A DNA stretch of 37,261 bases from Verrucomicrobiaceae bacterium (GTDB lineage Bacteria > Verrucomicrobiota > Verrucomicrobiia > Verrucomicrobiales > V1-33), in NCBI GenBank assembly GCA_027483175.1, contig JAIXVE010000141.1, positions 1 to 37,261 on the forward strand, in the 5' to 3' direction. Shown piece by piece: positions 25,853 to 30,406 of this stretch; positions within the stretch are counted from its first letter, which is position 1, and every line of letters starts with the position of its first letter. The position numbers were made by a program, and so were the translations under genes. Below the pieces are notes generated by a model. It ran no database searches. It saw only the letters and a list, made by a program, of their open reading frames with translations, and was not told the DNA's origin.

Positions 25853-26824
25853 TCAGTCACCCTTTTGCTGCTGTGCGCCACCGAACATGCCGCGGGACAT
25901 TTTGAGGCCGAGCTGCATCATTTCCTGCTGCTGTTTCTGAGCGGAACGGAAGGCGTCGAACTGTTCCGGGGAGAGGAATTCGCGGACCTTGGTTTCGACG
26001 GATTCCTGCATTTTGGCGTTTTCCTCGGCGTAGCGGTTGAGGGCTTCCTCGTTGAGGGAATCGGGGGAGAGATTGGCGGGGTTGGAGTAGTCGTGTTCGA
26101 ATTTCCAGTTCGAGCGGGTTTCGTAGAGACTGTCCATGAGCTTGGCCTCGGTGGCTTCGTCGAAGTCGAGCCCCTTGTCCTTGAAGGCGGATTTGACGAT
26201 TTTGAGCTGCTGGCGTTCGGGGGCGGACTTTTCGAATTTTTCGAGAGAGGCGTAGTTAGGGCCGAGCTTTTCCTTGAGGGCGGCTTCGGCTTTATCGGCT
26301 TCGGCTTTGATGGTGGCGGCGGCGGCGGCTTTGGCTTCTGGTGAGCCTGAGGACATGGCGAAGGCGGAGTCCATCTGAGAGATGGCGCGGTCGGCGATGA
26401 TTTTCATGACGGCGTCGGCGGTGGCTTCGTCGAGGCCGAGGGAGTCGAAGAGGTCGCGGTATTCGTTTTCGAGCTGGGCGCGGGTTTGGGCTTTGAGGGC
26501 GTCGCGAGCGGCGGGGTTTTTCATCATTTCGGCCATGACGCCGCCTGGGGAGGCGTCGGGGGCCTTGTCCTTGGATTTGTCAGGAGAGGCATCGGGGGAG
26601 GCGTCCGGGGGGACGAGATCGCCCAGACCGCGAGGGCCTTTGGGGTCGACTTCGGAGCCGGCGGCGAGGGAGACCTTGAGGCGGGCGGCTTTTTCGAGAG
26701 CGTCGACGGTATTGTTGAGCGATTCGATTTTGGTGTTCTGGCGGACGATGAGATCGTGCTGCCATGCGGCGAAGATGCCGAGGCCGGAGATGATGGCGAG
26801 GGAGAGGACGACGGTGGCTTTCAC
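25853..26824 (-). CDS. Membrane-anchored, helix-rich periplasmic protein of unknown function
   Basis: The 323-aa protein has an N-terminal membrane anchor (VVLSLAIISGLGIFAAW, ~5-21) and a short coiled-coil heptad stretch (NTKIESLNNTVDALEKAARL). A low-complexity Pro/Asp/Ser/Lys linker (DASPDASPDKSKDKAPDASP) is followed by a long helical, highly charged domain. The domain ends with LSPEQFDAFRSAQKQQQEMM, which resembles LTxxQ-like repeats of periplasmic Spy/CpxP-type proteins. It lies 57 bp after the sugar-permease gene and 7 bp before trmB. A role as an envelope chaperone or spacer is possible but unproven. Confidence 0.7.
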   Translation of the reverse strand: MKATVVLSLAIISGLGIFAAWQHDLIVRQNTKIESLNNTVDALEKAARLKVSLAAGSEVDPKGPRGLGDLVPPDASPDASPDKSKDKAPDASPGGVMAEMMKNPAARDALKAQTRAQLENEYRDLFDSLGLDEATADAVMKIIADRAISQMDSAFAMSSGSPEAKAAAAATIKAEADKAEAALKEKLGPNYASLEKFEKSAPERQQLKIVKSAFKDKGLDFDEATEAKLMDSLYETRSNWKFEHDYSNPANLSPDSLNEEALNRYAEENAKMQESVETKVREFLSPEQFDAFRSAQKQQQEMMQLGLKMSRGMFGGAQQQKGD

Positions 26825-26881: not shown

Positions 26882-27853
26882 TCAGCGGGATCTGGAGAGG
26901 AAGCGGGAGAGGAGTTCGTCGGCGACGACCCCGATGAGGATGAACGAGCCGATGACGAATTCCTTGAATTCGTCGCGAACGATGAGGCCGACGGCCTGGC
27001 GGACTTCGGCGACCATGAGGATGCCGAGGAGGACCCCGGTGACTCCGGCTTGACCGCCGCGGAGCGAGCAGCCGCCGAGGACGGCTCCGGCGATGGCCCA
27101 GAGTTCGTAGAAGTTGCCGAAGCCTGAGCCTTGAGCGGAATTGACTTCGAGGAGGAAGAGGACGCCGGAGAGGCCGGCGAAGATGGAGCAGAGGATGTAG
27201 GCGGTGATGCGGACGGCGGAGGTATTGACCCCGCTGAAGCGAGCGGCTTGTTCGTTGCGGCCGGTGGCGATGAGGTGGCGGCCCCAGACGGTGTGGTTGA
27301 GGAAGACGGCAGAGAGGGCGGCGGCGACGAGGAGGAGGAGGAAGACGGAGGGGATGGGGAGATCGCCTAGCGGTTGGGCTTTGACGAAGGCGGAGCGCAT
27401 CCATTGCTGGGCTTGCGGGACCATTTGTTCGCGATTGCCGCCGATGATGCGGGCGAGGCCTCGGTAGATGAAGAGCCCGCAGAGCGTGACGAGGAATGGC
27501 TGGAGCCGGAGACGAGTGATGAGGAGCCCGTGGAGAGCGCCGGCGGCGGCGGAGAGGAGGATGATGACGGCTAGGGCGGAGGTGGTGGATAGCCCGTAGT
27601 CGCGGAGGAGGACGGGGAAGAGGACGGCGGAGAGGCCGATCCATGAGCCGATGGAGAGGTCGATGCCGCCGGTGATGATGACGAAGCTGACGCCGAGGGC
27701 GATGAGCCCGTAGAGCCCGGCGTATTTGAGGATGAGGCCGATGCCGTCGACGCTGATGAAGCGGGGTTCGAGCCATGCGCAGACGGCGGTGAGGACGGCG
27801 AGGAGCGCGGCGATGACGAGCGTTTTCTGGTGGGAGGCGAAGAGAGAGTTCAT
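26882..27853 (-). CDS. RbsC/FrcC-type sugar ABC transporter permease
   Basis: The 323-aa protein is hydrophobic, with about eight to ten transmembrane helices. It has BPD_transp_2 family sequence: GGIDLSIGSWIGLSAV near residue 65, LPVLL, GVSFVIITGG, and the later VAEVRQAVGLIVRDEFKEFVIG. It would form the membrane channel of a monosaccharide importer. ATGA overlap with the ATPase stop shows translational coupling. The ligand is unknown. Confidence 0.93.
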   Translation of the reverse strand: MNSLFASHQKTLVIAALLAVLTAVCAWLEPRFISVDGIGLILKYAGLYGLIALGVSFVIITGGIDLSIGSWIGLSAVLFPVLLRDYGLSTTSALAVIILLSAAAGALHGLLITRLRLQPFLVTLCGLFIYRGLARIIGGNREQMVPQAQQWMRSAFVKAQPLGDLPIPSVFLLLLVAAALSAVFLNHTVWGRHLIATGRNEQAARFSGVNTSAVRITAYILCSIFAGLSGVLFLLEVNSAQGSGFGNFYELWAIAGAVLGGCSLRGGQAGVTGVLLGILMVAEVRQAVGLIVRDEFKEFVIGSFILIGVVADELLSRFLSRSR

Positions 27854-29361
27854 GCGGCGGGGCGGCGTGGGGAGCTGCCGGTGGCGAGTTGCATCACGGA
27901 GGCTTCTGAGGCCTCCTGGCGTGTTAGGGTTCCGGCGAGATGGCCTTCGTGAAGGACGAGGATGCGGTCGGAGAGACGGAGGATTTCTTCGAGGTCGCTG
28001 GAGATGACGAGGACGGCGGTGCCGGAGGCGGCGAGGGATTCGATGAGGGAATAGATTTCGCGTTTTGCGCCGACGTCGACGCCGCGGGTGGGTTCGTCGA
28101 GGATGATGATGCCTGGGGAGAGGGCGAGCCAGCGGCCGAGGGCGACCTTCTGCTGATTGCCGCCGGAGAGTTCGCCGACGAGCTTGTGGATGCCGGTGGA
28201 GCGGATGGAGAGGGAGGCGGAGAGATCTTCGGCGGAGCGGTTGATGGCGGCGTCGCTGATGAAGCCTGAGGGTGCGAAGTGGCGGAGGCGGGGCAGGGAG
28301 AGATTGTCGCGGATGGCCATGTCGAGGATGAGGCCCTGTTCCTTGCGGTCTTCGGGGACGAGGGCGAGCCCGGCGCGGATGGCGAGGCGCGGGTTGCCGT
28401 GTGTTAGGGGGTTGCCGTCGATGGAGATGGTGCCAGCGATGGGGCGGTCGATGCCGAAGATGGCGCGGGCGGCTTCGGTGCGGCCTGCGCCGACGAGGCC
28501 GGCGGCACCGGTGATTTCGCCGGCGCGGAGAGAGAAGGAGAGCTGACGGGCGGGGAAGGCGGCGGTGCGGAGGTTAGAGACCTCGAGGCGGACGGGGCCG
28601 GGCTGGCGGAGCGGGCGGGGTTCTGGCGGGGGGAGATCGCGGCCGACCATGAGACTGACGATGCGGTCGGGGGCGAGTTCTGATTTGGTGAGGGTGCCGG
28701 TGAAGCGACCGTCTTTGAGGACGATGACGCGGTCGGCGATGGCGGTGATTTCGGGGATGCGGTGGGAGATGAAGACGACGCAGATGCCGGCGGTGCGGAG
28801 ATCGCGGACGACGGAGAAGAGCGTGGCGGTTTCGCCAGCGGTTAGGGAGCTGGTGGGTTCGTCCATGATGACCATGCGGGCATCGAGGGAGAGGGCGCGG
28901 GCGATTTCGACGAGCTGGCGCTGACCGATGGAGAGGGAGGAGACGGGCGTGTTCGTGGGGATGCGGAGCCCGATGCGTTCGAGGAGGGCGGCGGTGCGGG
29001 CGCGCATGGCGGCGGCGTCGAGGAAGCAGCCGGCTTTTTTGAGTTCGCGGCCGAGGAAGACGTTAGAGGCGACGTCGAGATTGTCGCAGAGGTTGAGTTC
29101 CTGGTGGATGAAGGCGATGCCGAGTTGTTCGGCGCGGCGTGTGGAGGTGATGCGGAGGTCTTTGCCTTGCCATGTGAGGGTGCCTGAATCCGGCTGATGG
29201 ACCCCGGCGAGGCATTTCATGAGCGTGCTTTTGCCTGCGCCGTTTTCGCCCATGACGGCGACGACCTCGCCTTGGAAGAAGTCGGCGCTGACATTGTCGA
29301 GGGCGCGGACCCCGGCGAAGCGTTTGGAGATGCCGCGGGCGCTGAGGAGGGGTGCGGACAT
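27850..29361 (-). CDS. RbsA/MglA-type sugar ABC transporter ATP-binding protein (two cassettes)
   Basis: The 503-aa protein contains two ABC domains. The first has Walker A GENGAGKST (38-46), signature LSIGQRQ (143-149) and Walker B MVIMDEPT (163-170). The second has a degenerate Walker A (GLVGAGRTEAA), signature LSGGNQQKVALGRWLA and Walker B IIILDEPTRGVD. This is the usual form of monosaccharide-transporter ATPases, where the second cassette retains one active site. Overlaps the permease gene by 4 nt and follows the binding-protein gene by 22 bp. Confidence 0.94.
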   Translation of the reverse strand: MSAPLLSARGISKRFAGVRALDNVSADFFQGEVVAVMGENGAGKSTLMKCLAGVHQPDSGTLTWQGKDLRITSTRRAEQLGIAFIHQELNLCDNLDVASNVFLGRELKKAGCFLDAAAMRARTAALLERIGLRIPTNTPVSSLSIGQRQLVEIARALSLDARMVIMDEPTSSLTAGETATLFSVVRDLRTAGICVVFISHRIPEITAIADRVIVLKDGRFTGTLTKSELAPDRIVSLMVGRDLPPPEPRPLRQPGPVRLEVSNLRTAAFPARQLSFSLRAGEITGAAGLVGAGRTEAARAIFGIDRPIAGTISIDGNPLTHGNPRLAIRAGLALVPEDRKEQGLILDMAIRDNLSLPRLRHFAPSGFISDAAINRSAEDLSASLSIRSTGIHKLVGELSGGNQQKVALGRWLALSPGIIILDEPTRGVDVGAKREIYSLIESLAASGTAVLVISSDLEEILRLSDRILVLHEGHLAGTLTRQEASEASVMQLATGSSPRRPAA

Positions 29362-29383: not shown

Positions 29384-30406
29384 TCAGGGTTTGGCGGAGA
29401 GTTCGTCGATCATGCCCTGCTGACGTTCGCGGGCATTCTGGGCGTCCATGGAGCCGACAAAGACGGCGATTTTGCCACCGTCGGGGAGGGAGGAACGGAT
29501 GAGTTTGCCGAGTTCGCGGCCGGCGGAGTAGTTGTCCATGCCGTGGTAGAGCTTGCGGGGGCTGGAGGGAGCGTCGCTGTCGTGGGTGACGAGAGGGACC
29601 TTGGCGGCGATGGCGGCGAGGACATCGGCCTGAGCGTCGGCGGACATGACGGTGATGGCGACGCCTTTGGTGTCGGGTTTGTTGAGGACGTTCTCGATGA
29701 CGGCGTTCTGGGCGGAGACCTCCTGGCGGTCGGGCATCTGGAAGTCGACGGTGATGCCGAGTTCGGCCTGGGCTTTGAGGCAACCGGCGCGGGCTTCGTC
29801 CCAGAATGAAGAATTGTTATTAGTGATGAAGACGAAGCGTGGGGCACCGGCGGGTGGAGGGCTGGCGGCGGCGGCGGACTTCATGAGTTCGGCGAGAGCG
29901 GCCTCGTGCGGGGCGATGTTGTCTTTGGTTATGACCTTGACGGGGATGTCGATGGTGCCGTTTCTGGAGGTGACGGATTGGCCATCGGCGAGGGCTTTGA
30001 GGGATTTCATCGACTGGTAGCCGTATTCGAACGGTTGCTGGACGATGGTGCCGGTGATTTCGCCGGATTTGATGCCAGCGAGGGTGGGTTCGAGGCCATC
30101 GAAGCCGAAGATGCGAACGGAGGCGGGTTTGCCGGAGGCTTTGGCGGCGTCGCGGACGGCTTCGAGGCAGGCGGGAGGGTTGTAGCCGTAGAGGCCGGCC
30201 ATGGCGGCGAGGTCCGGGTGGAGGCGGAGGGCGTTTTCGGCGTTGGATTTGGCGGCGACGGTGTCCGCGCCGTCGGTCATGGTGGCGACGATGGTGAATT
30301 TGCCTGCGGTGATGGTGCCTGAGGCGGAGGTGCCGGCGGCGGGTTTGGAGCAGGCAGGGAGGAAGGCGACGGGGAGGGCGGCGAGGAGGGGGAGGAAGCG
30401 TTTCAT
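29384..30406 (-). CDS. Sugar-binding lipoprotein (RbsB-like), apparently circularly permuted
   Basis: The start is ATG 30406 (MKRFLPLLAALPVAFLPAC; lipobox LPAC, C19), giving 340 aa. The domain order is inverted compared with RbsB-type proteins. Residues ~36-165 match the usual C-terminal lobe (TDGADTVAAKSNAENALRLH, GYNPPACLEAVRDAAK, VRIFGFDGLEPTLAGIKSG, QQPFEYGYQSMKSLKALADG). Residues ~166-188 are an Ala/Pro-rich linker (KSAAAASPPPAGAP). Residues 189-340 match the usual N-terminal lobe (FVFITNNNSSFWDEARAGCL, VPLVTHDSDAP, FVGSMDAQNARERQQG), ending ELSAKP. Normally the protein would end with the first block and begin with the last. Ligand unknown; partner genes are RbsA/C-type. Confidence 0.85.
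   Translation of the reverse strand: MKRFLPLLAALPVAFLPACSKPAAGTSASGTITAGKFTIVATMTDGADTVAAKSNAENALRLHPDLAAMAGLYGYNPPACLEAVRDAAKASGKPASVRIFGFDGLEPTLAGIKSGEITGTIVQQPFEYGYQSMKSLKALADGQSVTSRNGTIDIPVKVITKDNIAPHEAALAELMKSAAAASPPPAGAPRFVFITNNNSSFWDEARAGCLKAQAELGITVDFQMPDRQEVSAQNAVIENVLNKPDTKGVAITVMSADAQADVLAAIAAKVPLVTHDSDAPSSPRKLYHGMDNYSAGRELGKLIRSSLPDGGKIAVFVGSMDAQNARERQQGMIDELSAKP

Follow-up and report, generated by a model that had tools for sequence, protein, structure and literature searches.

Natural circular permutants are hardly described among the binding proteins of ABC transporters. The founding example is TpMglB-2 from Treponema (Tp0684; PDB entries 5JX2 and 6BGC), assigned to 'Type Ic / Cluster Bc', and its authors suggested that the chain may have been permuted as an adaptation to anchoring in the membrane (PMC4990184). 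For the ribose-binding protein of Thermotoga maritima permuted halves were engineered (PMC9815098), so the fold tolerates permutation, but these constructs are man-made single lobes. To account for permuted chains, a 'permutation by duplication' model is available (PMC3320104). The E. coli protein RbsB and the T. maritima glucose/xylose-binding protein (2H3H, 3C6Q), which belong to the same family as the protein described here and have RbsA/RbsC-type partners, show the canonical chain order. Here, a window of 37,261 nucleotides from a Verrucomicrobiaceae bacterium, i.e., the whole stretch of DNA analyzed, was examined for a gene of this family with swapped halves. Taken as a whole, it is highly probable that its product is a working natural permutant, which serves a CUT2 sugar importer as its lipoprotein SBP; the permutation probably had one origin in a verrucomicrobial ancestor and was reversed in the genome G395.

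The gene and its operon

The features of the gene and of its operon, with the order SBP, rbsA, rbsC, are collected in Table 1. Intact rbsA and rbsC neighbors had been described in the first-pass annotation and were confirmed from the open reading frames and their Pfam matches. Residue Cys19 is invariant in an alignment of the 13 permuted proteins. The residue ranges originally given for the parts of the protein were correct to a few residues, but the segment called linker includes the canonical C-terminal helix. The join would add an extra (fourth) lobe crossover. Downstream of rbsC, positions 25853-26824 of the reverse strand encode a 323-aa protein with no Pfam match and with 91% identity to its counterpart in C1_MAG_00061. 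In a search of the whole genome no normal-order copy was found apart from a distant canonical PBP (G000:C332).

Table 1. Positions in the window of the permuted SBP gene, its parts and the neighboring transporter genes.
Feature	Position	Strand	Remarks
Circularly permuted sugar-binding lipoprotein gene	29384..30406	-	340 aa; start 30406, stop 29384-29386
Lipoprotein signal, residues 1-19	30350..30406	-	MKRFLPLLAALPVAFLPAC, lipobox LPAC
New N-terminal tether, residues 20-34	30305..30349	-	model confidence low to ~residue 28
Canonical second part, now first, residues 35-163	29918..30304	-	35-123 remaining C-lobe, followed by the final segment of the N-lobe and the canonical C-terminal strands
Join, residues 164-188	29843..29917	-	canonical C-terminal helix (164-179) and Ala/Pro linker into beta-1
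Canonical first part, now last, residues 189-340	29387..29842	-	N-lobe (to ~290), then first alpha-beta-alpha of C-lobe; end QGMIDELSAKP
RbsA-type duplicated ABC ATPase	27850..29361	-	two ABC_tran stretches; 22 bp downstream of SBP gene
RbsC-type permease (BPD_transp_2)	26882..27853	-	4-bp overlap with rbsA

Chain order

The Pfam profile Peripla_BP_4 matches the 340-aa protein (8.4e-51) in two stretches covering both profile halves, with profile positions 5-149 aligned to residues 193-338. In a search of the whole genome, profile positions 5-151 and 151-257 fell on adjacent DNA stretches in swapped order. The canonical N-lobe-first order, usual for Peripla_BP_4/CUT2 proteins, is absent here; since the homology spans both halves and this order is usual without being strictly defining, the protein is regarded as a permuted member of Peripla_BP_4/CUT2.

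For comparison by phmmer the sequence was rotated, placing residues 187-340 before residues 35-186. The native order aligned in two swapped stretches to 2H3H, RbsB, a Rhizobium SBP and the proteins of G395 and G399. After rotation, the alignment to 2H3H became one stretch of 124 bits (native order: 64 + 45 bits), and the scores rose to 59 bits for RbsB (20 + 31) and to 192 bits for the Rhizobium SBP (98 + 89). The opposite pattern was observed toward 5ER3 and the proteins of G392 and G396, to which the native order aligned in a single stretch. The circular permutation of this CUT2/RbsB-type (Peripla_BP_4) lipoprotein, proposed in the first-pass annotation, is real and far beyond chance.

Predicted structure and position of the cut

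An AlphaFold2 model obtained with an alignment of 13 permuted sequences reached a pLDDT of 86 and a pTM of 0.81, with low confidence only for residues 1-28. The first Foldseek match of this model was 5ER3 (TM 0.77/0.81, 315 columns), followed by a partial match to TpMglB-2 (~250 columns, TM 0.4); canonical PBPs mostly matched over ~150 columns, corresponding to one half, and a first model gave the same pattern.

In the alignment to RbsB the cut maps to mature residue ~150/151, in the alpha-beta loop after QGMIDEL, so that the new C-terminus lies just after this motif and the new tether runs into GKFTI. The C-terminal lobe of RbsB, which we take to comprise residues 104-235, contains this position ~47 residues from its start. 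The opening of the chain thus lies within the C-terminal lobe, in one of its surface loops, and not at the hinge, where the break and the new termini had initially been placed.

Between fixed marks at the cut point 14 residues are found in outgroup normal proteins, 31-37, often with a DPxRFDPPG-type motif, in the normal sister clade and 28 in the normal-order protein of G395, whose loop QDAPNGQPVTLGKY lacks this motif and resembles a permuted tether. In L007, L060, L093 and other normal-order homologues the long loop bearing such a motif is specific to the lineage and coincides exactly with the opening point of the permutants. The place at which the sister lineage has a long loop is therefore the same at which the permuted chain is open. 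The join, measured between fixed marks, comprises 43 or 45 residues in all verrucomicrobial permutants and 47 in 5ER3, and all verrucomicrobial permutants share the same C-terminus. The nearly constant length of the join and the retained C-terminal helix and Ala/Pro join point to a single origin, at least among the Verrucomicrobiota.

Distribution and selection

Twelve other genomes from this verrucomicrobial order encode collinear permuted proteins, with 42-99% identity. Collinear homologues lie in G397, G398, G389-G392, G396, G408, G457, G474, G493, G582 and G621. Within the same family the identity is 99% for V1-33 (G397) and C1_MAG_00061 (G398), 52-55% for G389-G392 and 46% for G396, and when 387 genomes from the order were searched with a profile, six more were added from two other families (G408, G474, G493, G457, G582 and G621). 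In G398 the homologue lies on two contigs with the break inside the permuted gene, and the ends (L062, G398:C231; L063, G398:C348) share an overlap of ~39 residues. No permuted forms were found outside the order in samples of 384 genomes of the class and 388 of the phylum, with five candidates scored per genome. The permuted SBP is under purifying selection, with a dN/dS of 0.054 between the window and V1-33 and of 0.066-0.12 within genus g200.

As every locus stems from a draft genome and the gene of C1_MAG_00061 spans two contigs, a misassembled, decayed or chimeric gene might merely resemble a permutant. This is extremely improbable, given the shared order in 12 other genomes at the identities stated above, the open frames, a dN/dS of ~0.1 and the independently deposited structure 5ER3; for the window gene, misassembly, which had been named as a potential objection, is ruled out by the recurrence of the order in these genomes and in the crystal structure.

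Plasmid searches with both query proteins returned mostly alphaproteobacterial matches, and the first one inspected (L065, Rhizobium) was canonical. Matches from genus g91 of family f28 (L018-L021 from G309, G100, G109 and G171) were rejected as permutants; these are tandem N-C-N-C double proteins, in which two PBP units are fused in one frame of 632-659 aa; in L020 and L021 the first N-lobe was below threshold.

Phylogeny and origin of the permutation

An ML tree was calculated from rotated SBP sequences, and half-trees from each SBP half alone. In the SBP ML tree the 13 permuted verrucomicrobial proteins and the normal-order protein of G395 form one clade (100/100), in which G395 is sister to the permuted protein of G396 from the same genus (100/99); both half-trees likewise pair G395 with G396. 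The two share 62% identity in the N-lobe and 69% in RbsA. Exclusion of G395 from the permuted clade was moderately rejected for the SBP (AU p=0.036) and also rejected for RbsA of the same operon, in whose tree G395 is nested likewise (AU p=0.0026), these p values being somewhat optimistic because the clade was chosen with the tree already known.

One old permutation, reverted later in the line leading to G395, appears to be the best reading, with several parallel permutations as its main rival, and a tether-like loop without the DPxRFDPPG-type motif is what would be expected of a reversion. If instead the ancestor had been of normal order and G395-like, with permutation occurring several times independently at the same loop, the position of a normal-order protein inside the permuted clade would be accounted for. 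The cut loop may be a hot spot, as related normal proteins have a long, exposed loop there. However, several events would then have to share the linker length, the Ala/Pro join and the C-terminus, and the G395 loop is tether-like and lacks the motif of many other long-loop normal proteins, which makes this course rather unlikely. Placing G395 as unpermuted sister of the permuted clade, with one permutation and no reversion, would agree with the long branches of G395 and G396 and with the modest p value for the SBP, but it is quite unlikely in view of its rejection by RbsA and of the pairing of G395 with G396 by the SBP halves. For the Verrucomicrobiota family we lean toward a single permutation that was reversed within one genus, with an ordinary history of the RbsA partner. 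The placement of 5ER3 in the SBP tree has a support of 84/41, so the permutation in R. baltica could be a separate event, and one clade of 5ER3 with the verrucomicrobial permutants was not rejected (p=0.355).

The permutation would have occurred a single time, in the ancestor of the verrucomicrobial proteins; a tandem duplication with subsequent truncation is its probable mechanism, and the order would later have been turned back in G395. The tandem double proteins of f28 indicate that the duplication step of the model occurs in this fold, albeit in another lineage. A split into two half genes that later fused again would be a possible route in that isolated type I PBP lobes can fold (PMC9815098), but it is doubtful, as an unsystematic search revealed no free half genes whereas tandem double PBPs were seen, if in another lineage.

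Ligand cleft and role in transport

In the alignment to RbsB, using the residue numbering that we assume for its cleft, D89, R141, N190, D215, Q235 and F15 are kept, while F16 is replaced by W and R90 by S, as in the normal relatives. A hexose or pentose is a plausible substrate because the best canonical PDB sequence relatives include the glucose/xylose-binding protein. The permuted protein is probably functional as SBP in sugar import, and the earlier supposition of function gains support from purifying selection, the cleft residues and the operon.

It would fold as a normal two-lobe Venus-flytrap and hand a monosaccharide, presumably glucose/xylose-like, to RbsC, with RbsA powering the import. 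The chain would open in the surface loop of the C-lobe after the first alpha-beta-alpha of this lobe, the old C-terminal helix would be joined to the old beta-1 via a stretch of 26-28 residues including the helix, and the lipid tether would thereby be shifted from the N-lobe to the C-lobe. RbsC is a homodimer; each of the lobes could thus be turned toward each of the subunits, and the tolerance of the transporter for the switch would be explained in this way.

The SBP-rbsA-rbsC operon is found in the window, G392, G408, G582, G621 and others, but is not universal, since the G391 gene lies apart and G396 has no adjacent rbsC. In G391 the permuted SBP gene (L101:5112-6146) is separated from rbsA/rbsC, which lie on a different contig (G391:C62), and has a neighbor that is nadD-like by eye. 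Of the two SBPs of G396 (L057, L058), the permuted one is accompanied by rbsA and lacks an adjacent rbsC, and the normal-order one is accompanied by rbsC and lacks an adjacent rbsA. The isolated G391 gene could suggest a ligand-binder of a sensor or chemoreceptor rather than a transporter SBP, which is very unlikely with the operon present in the genomes named above.

Comparison with known permuted and canonical proteins

The interpretation given in the first-pass annotation is partly supported. Its statement that such permutation is seldom reported in nature holds as to rarity, but the order is shared by 5ER3, and for TpMglB-2 a natural permutation of the fold, at another cut site, is already published (PMC4990184). 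The entry 5ER3, an ABC transporter SBP from Rhodopirellula baltica SH1 released in 2015, agrees in chain order from end to end (204 bits, one stretch) and in the cut loop and has a similar linker length (47 vs. 43-45), but stems from a different phylum, with about 37% identity. In a search covering few subscription journals, no paper on the topology of 5ER3 or on Verrucomicrobiota permutants of the family was found.

Permuted and unpermuted orthologues occur here within one order, even within one genus, together with related RbsA partners, and such matched pairs allow tests of how chain order affects folding, export, tethering and docking. If confirmed, the reversal in G395 would mean that the topology can toggle between close relatives. 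A lipoprotein-type Cys is present in both normal and permuted verrucomicrobial relatives; anchoring alone therefore does not explain the permutation.

With RbsB and the T. maritima glucose/xylose-binding protein the window protein shares the cleft residues, the comparison having been made with RbsB. TpMglB-2 is likewise a lipidated sugar-binding protein of type I that is naturally permuted and has an additional crossover between the lobes. However, TpMglB-2 is cut in the N-lobe, whose first three strands are moved to the end of the chain, whereas in the window protein the cut lies in the C-lobe and the N-lobe start together with the first alpha-beta-alpha of the C-lobe comes last.
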